Assembly: GCA_902516225.1 (NCBI GenBank)
Contig: CABXXS010000014.1
Location: 1 to 25,844 of the forward strand
DNA from: Puniceicoccaceae bacterium
GTDB lineage: Bacteria > Verrucomicrobiota > Verrucomicrobiae > Opitutales > Coraliomargaritaceae
Length of the DNA stretch: 25,844 bases
Reading direction: 5' to 3'
This document shows positions 13,866-25,132 of this stretch, in pieces. A program made the translations under genes and the position numbers. The notes under the pieces were generated by a model that was not told the DNA's origin, did not search any database, and worked only from the letters and a program-made list of their open reading frames with translations. Each line of letters begins with the position of its first letter. Within the stretch, counting starts at the first letter, position 1.

Positions 13866-14672
13866 CTACAAACTAGGCACGGCTTCAAGTAACTTGATAG
13901 TATATGGATGCCTAGGATTATTGTAAATCTCCTCCGCACTAGCATGTTCGACTATTTTACCTTCGGTCATAACAAGCACTTCGTCACTAATGTGCTCAAC
14001 TACTGCTAAATCGTGGGCAATAAACAGATAAGTTAGCCCCAATTCCTCCTGCAGATCTTGCAAAAGATTTACTATCTGCGCCTGAACGGAAACATCTAGG
14101 GCACTGACAGGCTCGTCGCAGACTATAAAATCGGGCTCTACCGCAAGAGCACGGGCGATACCAATTCGCTGGCGCTGGCCGCCACTGAACTGGTGTGGAT
14201 AGCGCTGCATAATGTCGGCGCTGAGACCAACTTTTTCGAGAAGATCTGCTACGCGCGCTTGTTTTTGAACTTTATCCCAATCTTTAAAATGAATATCCAG
14301 TGGTTCCGCGATTATGCTAAAAACTGTCATTCTCGGATTTAGTGAGCTAAATGGATCCTGGAAGATAACTTGTATTTTTTTTCGATAAGGAAAAAACTCG
14401 CGGTTAGTGAATGAAGCTAGATCCACCCCATCGTAATGCACCGAACCCGCGCTTAGAGGAACTAGCCGAGCGATGGCACGGCCTGTTGTCGTTTTACCAC
14501 TACCACTCTCGCCCACAAGCCCAACAGTCTTGCCTTTAGGTATATCAAAACTGATACCATCAACCGCCTTAACTACATCCACCGTACGCTGAAGTAAGCC
14601 ACCCTTGACTGGAAAGTGGACCTTTAAATTATTCACTGAAAGTAAGCTTTCAGTAGTGGATATTTTAGGCAT
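13866..14672 (-). CDS. Oligopeptide-type ABC transporter ATP-binding protein (OppF/DppF-like)
   Basis: A complete 268-residue ABC ATPase: Walker A 'GESGSGKT' (54-61), Q-loop Gln105 in '[14 protein letters not shown]', signature '[15 protein letters not shown]' (162-176), Walker B 'FIVCDEP' (182-188), D-loop 'SALD', and switch His220. The '[11 protein letters not shown]' stretch and C-terminal '[17 protein letters not shown]' mark the OppF/DppF branch of peptide and nickel importers. It ends right after the HPYT motif, shorter than the ~320 residues of many OppF proteins. No permease, OppD or binding-protein gene adjoins it, so its partner is elsewhere. No obvious terminator lies between it and the converging anti-sigma gene. 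Confidence 0.92.
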
Positions 14673-15180: not shown

Positions 15181-15367
15181 AAAATAAAAAGGCCCCGCAT
15201 GTGCCGTATTAGTGGGAGTTCTTAGCCTTTTTCGTCTAAGGTGGGTGCTTTTCGCGTGGGTTAATATCTTCCGATTGACGGCTAGATAGACACTCACGCG
15301 AGACAAGCTCCCGATTGTTAAAGAGTAAAGGACAGATTCTCCGATAAGTCTCGAACACCGCAGGGTT
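15181..15367 (-). ncRNA. ssrS: Probable 6S RNA (6S-like fold)
   Basis: Read on the minus strand, this ~185-nt segment folds in the 6S manner. The closing stem pairs CCCTGC (15365-15360) with GCGGGG (15198-15193), and GTG (15358-15356) with CAC (15203-15201). A large central bubble follows, with a small 3'-side hairpin CTTAG/CTAAG (15240-15236 with 15225-15221). A long interrupted apical hairpin runs through GGG-A-GCTT/AAGC-A-CCC, CGCGTG/CACGCG and TATCT/AGATA to CCG-TCAAT-CGG. The closing stem is followed by CCTTTTTATTTTT, a terminator-like U-rich end. 6S RNA binds housekeeping RNA polymerase by mimicking an open promoter. Identification is by fold and length, not by a family match; the 5' end is approximate. 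A TTGCTT/TATTTA pair upstream may be its promoter. Confidence 0.5.
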
Positions 15368-15470
15368 AATAATAAATATGATATTATTTTAGCTATAAGC
15401 AACCGGAAAGAAGCAATATTTGCTTGGCTAGAAACTGGACAAAGTTGGTCCTAGCGCCAAAGTTAAGAAT

Positions 15471-16814
15471 ATGAGACGCTTACCGCAGGAAATTATCGCC
15501 CGCAAGCGAGATGGATATGCTCTAGATGCCGTAGATATAAAGGAATTTATTGACGGAGTTGTAAACGGAGATTTTTGCGACTATCAAACCTCATCACTTC
15601 TAATGGCTATTGTACTGCAAGGGATGAACTTGAAAGAAACAGGTCTTTTAACTGATGCTATGATGCGCTCTGGGCGCATCATAGAATTACCCGAGATTAA
15701 TCGCCCAAAAGTTGACAAACATTCTACCGGTGGAGTTGGCGACAAAGTCTCCTTGATTCTAGCTCCTCTGGCTGCGGCCTGCGGTCTTTGTGTGCCCATG
15801 ATGAGCGGCCGCGGTCTAGGCCACACAGGTGGCACTCTTGACAAGTTAGAAGCTATACCCGGTTTTTGCACTCAAATGAGTGAAGAGTCTTACCGGAAAC
15901 AGTTACAGAAGATTCATCAGGCTATGATCGGCCAATCCAACGATATAGTCCCCGCAGACAGAAGGCTCTATGCCCTTCGCGATGTGACAGCAACAGTCGA
16001 GAGCATCCCCTTAATCTGCGCCAGTATTTTAAGTAAAAAGCTAGCTGAGGGGATCGATGCGCTTGTACTCGACGTCAAATTTGGACATGGAGCATTCATG
16101 GCTGATGAGGACTCTGGTCGTAAGTTGGCCGAAGCTCTCGTTGCTATCAGTTCTAGTATGGGAAAGCCAACCTCGGCTCTACTCACTAGAATGGATCAAC
16201 CCCTCGGCCGAATGGTTGGGAACTCTCTCGAAGTAATCGAAGCGATCGATTGTCTACGCGGGAATGGGCCAGGTGATCTCATGGAAGTCACTTATGCACT
16301 CTGCGCGGAAATGCTCCTTCTAGGCGGCCTACACAAATCGAGGAGCGAAGCAAAAAAATCACTCGAAGCGGCTATAACTAGCGGCGCCGCACTGGACGCA
16401 TTTCGAGAACTGGTCCATAGCCAAGGTGGCGACTGTACTGTTATCGATGACGTCTCGCGCCTGCCACATACAAAGCAAAGTAAAGAAATCAAGCTAGGTA
16501 ATGACAAGCCACTCTATGTCACTAGCCTAGACGCAAAAGAATTTGGTTTAGTAGCCTGCCTGCTCGGTGCAGGGCGTGTTAACGCCGACTCAACCGTAGA
16601 CCCATCAGTCGGCTTAGAGTTGCTAAAAAAGATCGGAGATCGTGTCGATGCACACGAAGGAATTGTTCGCATCCACTATAAAGACACAGAGCTACTTGGG
16701 CATGCAGAAGAACGCCTAAAGAAAGCAGTACTACTATCTGAAAAGAAACCGCAAAGGCTTCCTTTGGTTATTGACCATATATATGCCAAAGAGTCGGCAG
16801 GTAAAATAACATAG
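15471..16814 (+). CDS. Thymidine/pyrimidine-nucleoside phosphorylase
   Basis: Cleaves pyrimidine (deoxy)nucleosides with phosphate to the base and (deoxy)ribose-1-phosphate. The 447-residue protein has 'KHSTGGVGDKVS' (83-94, phosphate site) and the family signature 'SGRGLGHTGGTLDKLE' (112-127), followed by an alpha/beta domain and a C-terminal domain. Sequence alone does not separate thymidine phosphorylase (deoA) from the broader pyrimidine enzyme (pdp). It is the first gene of a salvage operon with punA and upp and lies about 100 bases from the divergent 6S-like RNA. Confidence 0.95.
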   Translation: MRRLPQEIIARKRDGYALDAVDIKEFIDGVVNGDFCDYQTSSLLMAIVLQGMNLKETGLLTDAMMRSGRIIELPEINRPKVDKHSTGGVGDKVSLILAPLAAACGLCVPMMSGRGLGHTGGTLDKLEAIPGFCTQMSEESYRKQLQKIHQAMIGQSNDIVPADRRLYALRDVTATVESIPLICASILSKKLAEGIDALVLDVKFGHGAFMADEDSGRKLAEALVAISSSMGKPTSALLTRMDQPLGRMVGNSLEVIEAIDCLRGNGPGDLMEVTYALCAEMLLLGGLHKSRSEAKKSLEAAITSGAALDAFRELVHSQGGDCTVIDDVSRLPHTKQSKEIKLGNDKPLYVTSLDAKEFGLVACLLGAGRVNADSTVDPSVGLELLKKIGDRVDAHEGIVRIHYKDTELLGHAEERLKKAVLLSEKKPQRLPLVIDHIYAKESAGKIT

Positions 16815-22086: not shown

Positions 22087-23499
22087 ATGTTATCTAGTAT
22101 TCTCTACATCGCGCTCGCTCTATTTGCTCTAGGATTTTCCATCTTCATTCACGAGCTTGGACATTTTATAGCAGCCAAAAAGCGTGGATTGGTCGCGGAT
22201 CGATTTTCAATCGGATTCGGCCCTCGGCTCTTTGGTTGGAACCACAATGGAACTGACTTTCGAATCTCCCTTCTTCCGCTGGGCGGATATGTCTCTCTAC
22301 CACAGTTAGCCGACATGGGGCGCGTTGAAGGCGGCGAGGGCGATGAGAGTAATCGACTCCCCCCGATTTCTTACGCCGATAAGATGATCGTAGCAGTGAT
22401 GGGCGCAGTCTTTAACTTGATCTTTGCTCTATTGCTCTCGCTAGTGCTCTGGGGTGTCGGTCGAGAAATTGTAAAATCAACCACCGTGGGTTTCGTAGCT
22501 GAAGAAATCCGCAATGCGGATAATGAGATCGTTCCGGGGCCTGCTTTTGTCGCTGGAATTATTGAAGGGGATATTATTGACAGTATTGACGGAAATAAAG
22601 TGCCTGATTGGTGGTACTTTCAGAATGCTATTGCCACGGGTGTAGGTAAAGGTACAGGCGATTTAGGCCGCCGACAAGTGGAAGTCCGCGTACTCAGAGA
22701 GGGTGAAGTTATAGATTTTATTGTCTATCCTGAACTCGTCTCTAGCGAGCGAATGCGCTATATCGGTATCGAACCTGAGACCGACGAGACTTCCGCGCCG
22801 ATTGTTATGCGACTCGAGGCTGGCATGCCTGCGATCGATGCTGGGCTAAAGCCTGGTGATCGCCTAATACGCCTTGACGGCGAAGACATCATCTCTGGCG
22901 CTTTTTTAAGCACTTATCTCAGTAAATATGGAGATCGAAGTATCGATGTGACTGTAGAGCGCGAGGGCAAAGAGCTTACCCTGCCGATACGGCCTAGGAT
23001 CAAAGACGGCGAAGATAGCCCGCGCTTCGGATTCGCCTACGATTTTCAGTACAAGACTCAGAGCGTTCACTACAACCCAATCGAGCAACTTTATCGTTTC
23101 GCTGAGACTATGAAGATGACGCTCTATGCTCTACTTCACAAAAACTCTGATGTCGGGGTAAAAAATATGAGTGGCCCTGTAGGAATAGTGCACGGGCTCA
23201 CTCGAATGGCGCAAGTAGGATTTATTGATCTGCTATGGATGCTAGCTCTGATAAATGTGAATCTAGCCATCTTTAATCTCCTTCCAATTCCCGTGCTCGA
23301 TGGCGGGCATATGCTCTTCGCGACTGCATCAAAAGTCATAGGGCGTCCACTTCCGAGGAAGCTTATGGAAAACATGCAGGGCGCTTTCATGCTCATCCTG
23401 CTCGGTTTCATTATATACGTCAGCTTCTTCGACGTCGGTCGCGTCGGTCGTGACATCGGTTTAATTAAGGAAGAAGCCCTCGTAGAAGAAGCGCCATAG
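22087..23499 (+). CDS. rseP: Site-2 protease RseP (zinc metalloprotease)
   Basis: An intramembrane metalloprotease that cleaves membrane-bound anti-sigma factors or other single-pass substrates. Zinc motif 'HELGH' at 22-26 in the first membrane helix; two PDZ-like domains in the middle (around 'AFVAGIIEGDIIDSIDGNKV' and 'AIDAGLKPGDRLIRLDGEDI'); C-terminal 'NLLPIPVLDGGHM' with the third ligand Asp. I start at the ATG at 22087 (470 aa); a TTG two codons earlier is also in frame. It ends the uppS cluster and converges with dnaX. Confidence 0.94.
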   Translation: MLSSILYIALALFALGFSIFIHELGHFIAAKKRGLVADRFSIGFGPRLFGWNHNGTDFRISLLPLGGYVSLPQLADMGRVEGGEGDESNRLPPISYADKMIVAVMGAVFNLIFALLLSLVLWGVGREIVKSTTVGFVAEEIRNADNEIVPGPAFVAGIIEGDIIDSIDGNKVPDWWYFQNAIATGVGKGTGDLGRRQVEVRVLREGEVIDFIVYPELVSSERMRYIGIEPETDETSAPIVMRLEAGMPAIDAGLKPGDRLIRLDGEDIISGAFLSTYLSKYGDRSIDVTVEREGKELTLPIRPRIKDGEDSPRFGFAYDFQYKTQSVHYNPIEQLYRFAETMKMTLYALLHKNSDVGVKNMSGPVGIVHGLTRMAQVGFIDLLWMLALINVNLAIFNLLPIPVLDGGHMLFATASKVIGRPLPRKLMENMQGAFMLILLGFIIYVSFFDVGRVGRDIGLIKEEALVEEAP

Positions 23500-23537: not shown

Positions 23538-25132
23538 TTAGAAAATCTGGTCGCGCTCGTCTACGTGGCGGATTTGAGTTAGACTACCCTTAAACTTCTG
23601 CTCTAAGACTTTTAATACCTCAGGAGTAAGCGCGGCTTGAGCATGATCGAGGCTGATTAAAGCCTCCTCCGAAGTCAGTATGGGAATATCCAATTTTTCT
23701 TCTTGGCTCGTGTCGTGCTGGGACGCCGCGACTACCTGCTGTTCGCTCTGGCCGAGCTCTTCGCCCCCAGTTTCAGGAATAGATTCTTCTGGCGGGTACC
23801 CGCCACCATTATCACTGTTATTAGCTTTTTCTGCGGATTCTACTACATCCAGCTCTCGATTAGACTCGGCATTTCTCTCATCACTAAAGGGACTTGGATC
23901 GGTCTCCCCAGTTTTTTCGGGGGCCTCGACTAGATCTGAGCCAGCGAAATTAGGGTTAGCTGGCGGAATGATCAGGGCTTTTTTTTTTCGCCTTCGCCCC
24001 CAGTACTAGTTTTTTCCGAGTTCGCCGCAGAAGCTGCAGTCACTTGTTTAATCAAACTATCGATCGCTCGTGAGCGCGACTCTTCGGATGCTTTTAAGAG
24101 AACGACTTCGAAATTTACTTTTTCAGATAGTCCTTTCTGCACAGAGACTTCCCCACGGTGCAGGGCATCTAGCATTCGCATAATTGACTCCGTGCTCATA
24201 TCCGTTCCAAGCTTTTTCGTACTACCGTCATTGTGAATGGCATCAAGAAGTGCGACACGAGCGTGAGCTTCGAGGTCGACTAGGATTCGGTAGAGGTCGC
24301 GGCCTTCTGCCGAAAATTCATCTACCGCAGCTATGATACTTGCGTAGTCCAGCGCAGCGAGCGCCTTTGCGAGTTCAGAAATACGCTCGGCAGACACGAG
24401 CCCATAGACATCGAGTACATCAAATTCTTTAATATCGTTACCGCAGAAAGAAATCATCTGGTCTAGAATGGATTGGGCATCGCGCATGCCGCCATTGGCT
24501 AACCGCGCTATGGATGTAAGCGCAGTGGACTCGACCTTAATCGCCTCGGTCTCACAAATCTGCATAAGCTTTTCCGCGATCACAGCGTCCGATATCGGGC
24601 GGAACTCGAAGCGTTGACAACGCGAGACAATTGTAGGCAGCACCTTATGAGCTTCAGTAGTAGCAAAAAAGAATTTTACGTGCTCAGGTGGCTCTTCTAA
24701 GGTCTTTAACAGTGCATTAAATGCCGCCGTCGATAGCATGTGAACCTCATCAATAATGTATATTTTATAGGTGCACTGCGCGGGTGCGAACTGGCACTCT
24801 TCTCGCAAGCTACGTACCTGCTCGACACTATTATTAGATGCCCCGTCGATCTCGATTACATCCATACACGAGCCGTCCATGATGGCCTGACTGGTAACGG
24901 ACTCGTTATCGGGTGTGACACTGGGTCCTCCTTCCGCGTTGAGCGCCTTAGCGAAAAGACGCGCGGTGCTGGTTTTGCCAGTTCCTCGAGGACCTACAAA
25001 GAGATAAGCATGGGCGATTCGTTTTGAATCGATCGCATTACTCAAGGTGCGCACTATATGGTCCTGCCCCACCAGTTCATTAAACTGCTTGGGGCGCCAG
25101 CGGCGTGCGATTACTTGATATGCTTTTTCCAT
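23538..25132 (-). CDS. dnaX: DNA polymerase III subunit tau (DnaX), read through a -1 frameshift
   Basis: Clamp-loader ATPase and replisome organiser. Walker A 'GPRGTGKT' (47-54), 'DEVHML' (129-134) and 'SRCQRF' (170-175) are intact. The zero frame (386 aa) stops at 23972-23974, two codons after an A10 run. The -1 frame is open from that run to a TAA at 23538-23540, adding 146 residues: an acidic, Ser/Glu/Pro-rich linker, then a folded-looking end ('[17 protein letters not shown]', final '[12 protein letters not shown]'). A -1 shift at A-AAA-AAG therefore gives a 531-aa tau. Alternatives are transcriptional slippage (+1 A) or an undercounted homopolymer. All four zinc-module cysteines are missing (Ala66, Asp75, Ser78, Ser81). 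Confidence 0.8.
23940..23989 (-). promoter_or_regulatory. dnaX recoding site: A10 slippery run with downstream hairpin
   Basis: On the minus strand, G followed by ten A (23988-23979) and G contains the in-frame heptamer A-AAA-AAG, the same as in E. coli dnaX. A G-rich stretch (GGGGGCGAAGG) lies just upstream and might pair with 16S rRNA. A 6-bp hairpin GCCAGC/GCTGGC (23964-23959 with 23945-23940) lies 13 bases downstream, farther than usual for a stimulator. Confidence 0.6.
23972..25132 (-). CDS. dnaX: DnaX gamma-like short form (zero-frame product)
   Basis: Without a frameshift the same start at 25132 gives 386 residues ending '...GEGEKKKP'. It contains the complete AAA+ region and the domain III oligomerisation part, ending in an Ala/Ser/Glu-rich tail, as gamma subunits do. 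Both forms are probably made if the shift is programmed. Confidence 0.75.

Follow-up and report, generated by a model that had tools for sequence, protein, structure and literature searches.

Probable RNA-polymerase slippage on a conserved A-run in dnaX of the bacterial order Opitutales

Introduction

In Escherichia coli, gamma and tau are made from one gene, dnaX, which reads tau in frame and shifts at an in-phase A_AAA_AAG heptamer to produce gamma. An SD-like element and a hairpin are described as parts of the E. coli site (PMC3711429). The dnaX gene of Thermus thermophilus, as it has been described, reaches a similar outcome by slippage of RNA polymerase (RNAP) on a run of nine A (A9) at the gamma/tau border, where unslipped transcripts encode tau and slipped ones gamma. 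According to PMC5009743, Thermus slippage adds one or more A in diminishing proportions, and the RNAP hybrid is 9-10 bp long. About half of the product is reported to be full length (PMC5009743; PMC1088944). Thermus has both tRNA-Lys species, unlike E. coli, and their joint presence has been linked to slippage rather than to frameshifting (PMC5009743).

A third arrangement is described in PMC3711429 as a GeneTack dnaX cluster of 17 genes from 12 genera, nine of them with ten A, in which two ORFs meet at an A10 and the tail lies in the -1 frame; transcriptional realignment was inferred by its authors. A two-ORF A10 dnaX with a -1 tail is already known from that description, and Opitutales members may already be in its species list. 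The same paper takes a mixed shift direction among orthologues as a sign of transcriptional realignment, and reads in this way certain IS630-type transposase families in which the downstream part lies in either -1 or +1.

Here we describe dnaX in a stretch of 25,844 nucleotides from a Puniceicoccaceae bacterium (the window, meaning the whole of the DNA analysed) and in relatives across Opitutales. As in the GeneTack cluster, the gamma ORF of the window ends just past an A10 and tau needs a shift into -1; the cluster is described as -1 only, whereas the Opitutales site has tau in -1, 0 and +1. As described for Thermus, a run of RNAP-hybrid length lies at the gamma/tau border, the off-frames are closed nearby and two tRNA-Lys are present, but in the window gamma would be the unslipped product and slippage is proposed to make tau. 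The window is likewise reversed relative to E. coli, with which it shares the in-phase heptamer; neither the SD-like element nor the hairpin is conserved in Opitutales, and the run here is ten A. The IS630-type families are mobile-element genes, whereas Opitutales dnaX is a core replication gene across one order. Among the matches listed, a literature search whose scope left most subscription journals outside returned no report of the Opitutales site or of +1 tails, and the spread over three frames within one order looks to be the new part.

Results

The dnaX locus of the window

The features of the locus are as follows.

23972..25132, minus strand: dnaX 0 frame, 386 aa, gamma-like clamp-loader subunit (ATG at 25132, TGA at 23974-23972)
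23979..23988, minus strand: A10 run (T10 on the plus strand), proposed slippage site (sequence and conservation in Opitutales)
23972..23974, minus strand: 0-frame TGA, the gamma stop, two codons past the run (sequence)
23956..23958, minus strand: +1-frame TAA, seven codons past the run, a gamma-length stop for the third frame (sequence)
23538..23978, minus strand: putative -1-frame tau extension, 146 codons plus TAA at 23540-23538 (ORF, profile match, dN/dS)
23541..23663, minus strand: conserved C-terminal segment of the tau extension, its last 41 codons, predicted helical (alignment A2, AlphaFold2, profile)
23940..23964, minus strand: 6-bp hairpin GCCAGC/GCTGGC with a 13-nt loop, probably not functional (folding z, relatives)

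The 0-frame coding end of dnaX reads GGC GAA AAA AAA AAG CCC TGA, and the -1 frame, entered within the A10, starts after the run with GCC CTG ATC. Our analysis of the minus strand confirmed the layout given in the original prediction: ten A, a 0-frame stop two codons on and a -1 frame open for 146 codons. Judged by curated profiles and by similarity to E. coli gamma/tau, the 386-aa product is the DnaX core: PF13177 scored 142 bits (cut-off 27; E 2e-41), PF22608 55 bits (cut-off 27) and NCBIfam TIGR02397 (dnaX_nterm) 410 bits (cut-off 250), and a PDB comparison matched the product to the gamma/tau chains of E. coli with E 3e-69. PF12169 (domain III) reached 22.3 bits on the window dnaX, under its cut-off of 24.4. 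The gene is convergent with an ORF ending at 23499, with 38 bases between the two stops. Elsewhere in the window, a 6S RNA (RF00013, 65.5 bits, gathering 46.4) lies at 15188-15369 on the minus strand, between ORFs 13866-14672 and 15471-16814.

Apart from the A10 of dnaX, neither strand of the window has a run of at least nine A. In window-only run statistics, shuffles averaged 1.33 such matches and 31 of 100 reached the observed 2; an A-run of nine or more is unremarkable by chance alone in 26 kb. The significance of the A10 comes from its conservation in relatives and not from the statistics of the window.

The tail resembles tau only in the shifted frame

A profile of 48 in-frame DnaX C-termini matched the -1 frame of the window with E 4.6e-5. 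Over the Opitutales loci described below, 22 of 62 tails in -1 and 9 of 17 tails in +1 were matched in the predicted frame at E<1e-3, and 46 and 13, respectively, at E<0.1. No match was obtained in 158 other forward frames or in 237 reverse frames at E<1e-3, nor was there any at E<0.1. Four tails gave no profile match whatsoever, and Pfam and NCBIfam searches returned no family for the tau tail.

In an alignment of 29 family tails (A2) the linker is variable and the last 35-40 residues are conserved, with invariant F, G, R and D positions. AlphaFold2 run on A2 modelled the linker with low confidence and placed two helices in residues 110-128; mean pLDDT of the tail was 60.1 overall and 68-85 in the last five ten-residue blocks. 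This model agrees with the acidic linker and structured C-terminus that had been proposed from tail composition. Tail dN/dS, computed for 21 pairs, was 0.47 between the window and its nearest relative, L001, and 0.10-0.70 in the other computable pairs, values higher than those of the core. Summed over 13 of these pairs, tail substitutions at codon positions 1/2/3 numbered 244/186/481. By these measures the tails are under purifying selection.

Conservation of the A-run across Opitutales

Of 109 relatives searched, 107 gave some match, several of these weak only. The locus set consisted of the relatives' dnaX loci and named contigs with duplicates removed; weak matches from genomes without a dnaX contig were left out, and the order was identified by named records (Puniceicoccaceae, Coraliomargarita and others). 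Two loci were excluded throughout: L005, a family-f1 locus close to the end of its contig that has no run, and L101, a second, broken dnaX-like locus of genome G041. The order counts also exclude L153-L175, which come from other orders and phyla.

Of the 112 dnaX loci compared in Opitutales, window included, 103 have 8-13 consecutive A at the site and nine are without such a run. Run lengths were A10 in 83, A9 in 16, A11 in two, and A8 and A13 in one each, which places A9 or A10 in 99 of the 112. The run begins between residues 364 and 386 in all but one of the 103 run-bearing loci, the exception being L100 with a start at residue 408. A class-level search matched 187 of 189 genomes, and 40 were sampled, comprising 27 from other orders and 13 further Opitutales genomes of family f13. 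All 13 of the latter carry A9 or A10, and in the combined set these lengths account for 112 of 116 run-bearing loci. None of the 27 genomes sampled elsewhere in the class has a run of at least eight A in the scanned stretch; counted from the match start, dnaX in these genomes is a single frame of 512-693 codons, and three of them have a run of 8-9 A elsewhere, after codon 330. On this sampling the A-run is a feature of Opitutales. Upstream lysine codons in these dnaX genes are about half AAG (876 AAA vs 914 AAG), so the all-AAA run does not reflect codon bias, with the caveat that the run was defined as A-only.

The nearest genome compared, G001, shares 57% of 31-mers and carries the A10 and stop unchanged; its protein is 99% identical. 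In three of 11 genomes scanned, G001 (1.2 Mb, 64% complete), G016 and the single-contig genome G076, an exact A10 occurs once, and in dnaX. In the same scan G079 (family f19) had 66 exact A10 in 2.1 Mb, compared with 1-10 in the ten other genomes; if this count is real, slippage-prone runs are not purged there.

Gamma/tau recoding at the window dnaX, which the original prediction had called probable, is well supported by sequence comparison, because the run is conserved, homology to tau is found only in the shifted frame and the tail appears to be under selection.

Two further observations concern individual loci. The run is absent in L089, L091-L094, L098 and L099, which are long-branch lineages, and the genomes behind the run-less long-branch loci (families f6, f7, f25 and f27) measure 0.8-1.3 Mb. 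Genome G041 has two dnaX-like loci, L025 (C33) and L101 (C24). One has internal stops; in the other, the last 45 bases before the stop are identical to L006 and the tail end is like that of L023. The pair looks like a mixed bin or a misassembly, recombination near the A-run being less likely.

The frame of the tau extension varies among relatives

In the 112 loci the tau extension lies in -1 in 62, in 0 in 21 and in +1 in 17; nine have no run, and in three (L085, L088 and L142) the run is present and the sequence is truncated past it, leaving the frame unassigned. With the f13 genomes added there are 125 loci, 75 with tau in -1 and the other counts as before (0, 21; +1, 17; truncated, three; no run, nine). 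All counted loci of the window's own family, f1, are -1, and families f19, f20 and f22 each have both +1 and 0 members. The 21 frame-0 loci share the Thermus layout, an unbroken tau with the run inside, and 18 of them have A9 or A10. Comparison with relatives had been suggested in the original prediction as a check, and most uninterrupted dnaX genes turned out to carry the same A-run rather than none.

To map these states we used a maximum-likelihood tree with 83 DnaX cores of the order and three of the outgroup, 86 in all. The three-state label required at least ten frame changes, and well-supported branches alone force six changes for the +1 label. AU tests rejected a single +1 clade (p-AU 3e-30) as well as a single -1 clade (p-AU 0.0003). 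The tree left out 21 family-f1 rows by thinning, the three truncated rows, seven run-less rows on long branches, three A9 rows likewise on long branches (L095-L097) and eight of the 13 further f13 rows.

Five members of the f8 clade combine A10 with a +1 tail. A sixth, L133, has A11, hence tau in -1; it comes from one metagenome assembly and may be an error. In the f8 sisters L050 and L138 the run is decayed or shortened (CAA AGA AAA ATA and GGA AAA AAA ATT, respectively) and tau is in frame. Since their sisters have A10 with a +1 tail, L050 and L138 appear from these sequences to be losing the recoding mechanism.

Early stops close the non-tau frames

In the window, the non-tau frames close two codons (0) and seven codons (+1) past the run. 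The corresponding positions were compared in 54 representatives, one for each combination of genus, tail frame and run length. Where the tail is in -1, the third frame is closed within seven codons in 34 of 36 cases, against 10.5 expected (P 0.0002). Where it is in +1, the -1 frame is closed early in 5 of 5 cases (0.5 expected), and where it is in 0 the +1 frame is closed early in 11 of 13 (3.0 expected). The weakest cases include the -1 frame of 0 tails (10 of 13 vs 6.1 expected, P 0.016) and the 0 frame of +1 tails (4 of 5 vs 1.5 expected, P 0.025). In every class, stops tend to close the two non-tau frames a short way past the run. Closure of the third frame counts against a pure -1 ribosomal shift, because such a shift never visits that frame.

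Stimulatory signals and tRNA-Lys

The window hairpin pairs 23964-23959 with 23945-23940 in a 6-bp stem located 14 nt downstream of the run. A downstream GC hairpin had been part of the original prediction; the stem exists, but it is not conserved, as one pair is broken in L001 and the stem was not seen in 12 other close relatives. The 50-nt segment containing it has a folding z of -2.1, compared with -2.4 for a control 150 nt downstream in dnaX. Over 100 loci, downstream folding had a mean z of -0.44 vs -0.02 and -0.01 in controls, and two close relatives, L007 and L009, have strong downstream folds with different stems (-23.2 and -22.9 kcal/mol, respectively, each over 60 nt). An SD-like upstream motif occurs in 28 of 103 loci and in 21 of 103 at a control position, which is no enrichment. 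As a frameshift stimulator, structure upstream or downstream of the run is a weak candidate that is not conserved, and we rejected it.

All ten relatives tested, among them two of the same genus, were confirmed to have both tRNA-Lys(UUU) and tRNA-Lys(CUU), and in none of the ten was there a single tRNA-Lys reading AAA and AAG as in E. coli. In G062, L194 and L238, which overlap one tRNA-Lys(CUU) candidate, gave no tRNA; a second copy, L236, did.

Discussion

We propose, with a probability of roughly 85%, that the window carries a split dnaX whose long product, tau, is made by RNAP slippage on the A10. On the T10 template RNAP would lose register, and the all-A:T RNA:DNA hybrid of 9-10 bp would re-pair one or more bases off, giving a mixed mRNA population with A-runs of differing lengths. 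In mRNAs that keep the ten A of the template (or have 12, 13 and so on) the reading frame would end within a few codons, giving gamma, about 386 aa; those with 11 A (or 8 or 14) would join the -1 frame and encode tau, about 531 aa. Two extra A would give a gamma-length product ending at the +1 stop. A slippage spectrum like that of Thermus would here yield substantial amounts of both proteins. Tau would then consist of the AAA+ clamp-loader core, an acidic disordered linker and the conserved C-terminal helical segment, which presumably tethers the polymerase and/or the helicase. We infer slippage itself, both proteins and their ratio, and the binding partner of the tail.

Slippage is the likeliest mechanism when set against the alternatives. 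Programmed -1 ribosomal frameshifting on A_AAA_AAG, with roles reversed relative to E. coli dnaX such that the shift makes tau, is unlikely. The window by itself would be compatible with such a shift, given its in-phase heptamer and hairpin and a family in which all counted loci are -1. Beyond the window, A_AAA_AAG, a strong E. coli shift site, is the commonest end of the run in -1 loci (53 of 75), downstream folding is slightly above controls and strong in L007 and L009, a reversed candidate with E. coli-like signals is described in Chlorobium phaeobacteroides (PMC5009743), and frameshift efficiency in E. coli reporters of a different gene is also positively correlated with A-run length (PMC3711429). 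The E. coli phase of A-AAA-AAG, stressed in the original prediction, is correct, but it is uninformative as evidence because any run of at least nine A contains an in-phase A_AAA_AAN heptamer. What separates the mechanisms is the comparison across the order. The 17 loci with +1 tails favour slippage, because a -1 ribosomal shift cannot reach them, and Opitutales dnaX thereby shows the mixed direction that PMC3711429 takes as a mark of realignment. The kept run length of 9-10 also favours slippage, because it matches the RNAP hybrid, whereas a ribosomal shift needs only seven A. The distant hairpin, broken in L001, the SD-like motifs at near-control frequency, the two tRNA-Lys in all ten relatives and the closed third frame stand against ribosomal frameshifting as well. 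The E. coli-like shift of the original prediction is therefore not upheld, its heptamer phase being automatic, its hairpin not conserved and its gamma/tau roles reversed, and the Thermus-like transcriptional slippage that it named as an alternative is better supported by the three tail frames, the run length and the stops.

Ribosomes might instead slide on poly(A) and leave in any frame, which would permit all three tail frames and require no RNA heterogeneity. Sliding in several frames along iterated AAA has been described for E. coli systems, but the cell-free minimum given in that work is 11 A (PMC4363877) and nearly all runs here have 9 or 10, making this explanation very unlikely. A sequencing or assembly error in the homopolymer, or a decaying gene, has to be considered because homopolymers are error-prone and many of the relatives are metagenome assemblies. 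It is nevertheless improbable in the extreme: A10 recurs in independent assemblies, including the single contig of G076, no one length correction joins both -1 and +1 tails, early stops close both other frames in each class, and the codon-position counts of the tails point to purifying selection.

Slippage, as the preferred mechanism, suggests a wider reading for the order, which we regard as probable, although with less confidence than the proposal for the window. Opitutales dnaX would be frame-indifferent: the A9-A10 run, apparently acquired at the root of the order, would be held by selection while the frame of tau drifts among three, slippage would supply all of them and the early stops would make gamma. 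As part of this reading, the transcript length that makes tau (A10, A11, or A9/A12) would have changed at least ten times.

The proposal would extend slippage-made gamma and tau, reported for Thermus, to a bacterial order by evolutionary evidence, and the spread of tail frames gives a comparative test that can tell RNAP slippage and a -1 ribosomal shift apart from genome sequences alone. In genomes with an out-of-frame tau, automated gene prediction is likely to overlook tau or to report dnaX as broken. One and the same run is predicted to yield a different gamma:tau ratio in each of the three frame classes, a point that bears on the reason for keeping gamma at all. If the frame-indifferent reading is true, Opitutales would in effect be a naturally occurring mutant series for one slippage site.
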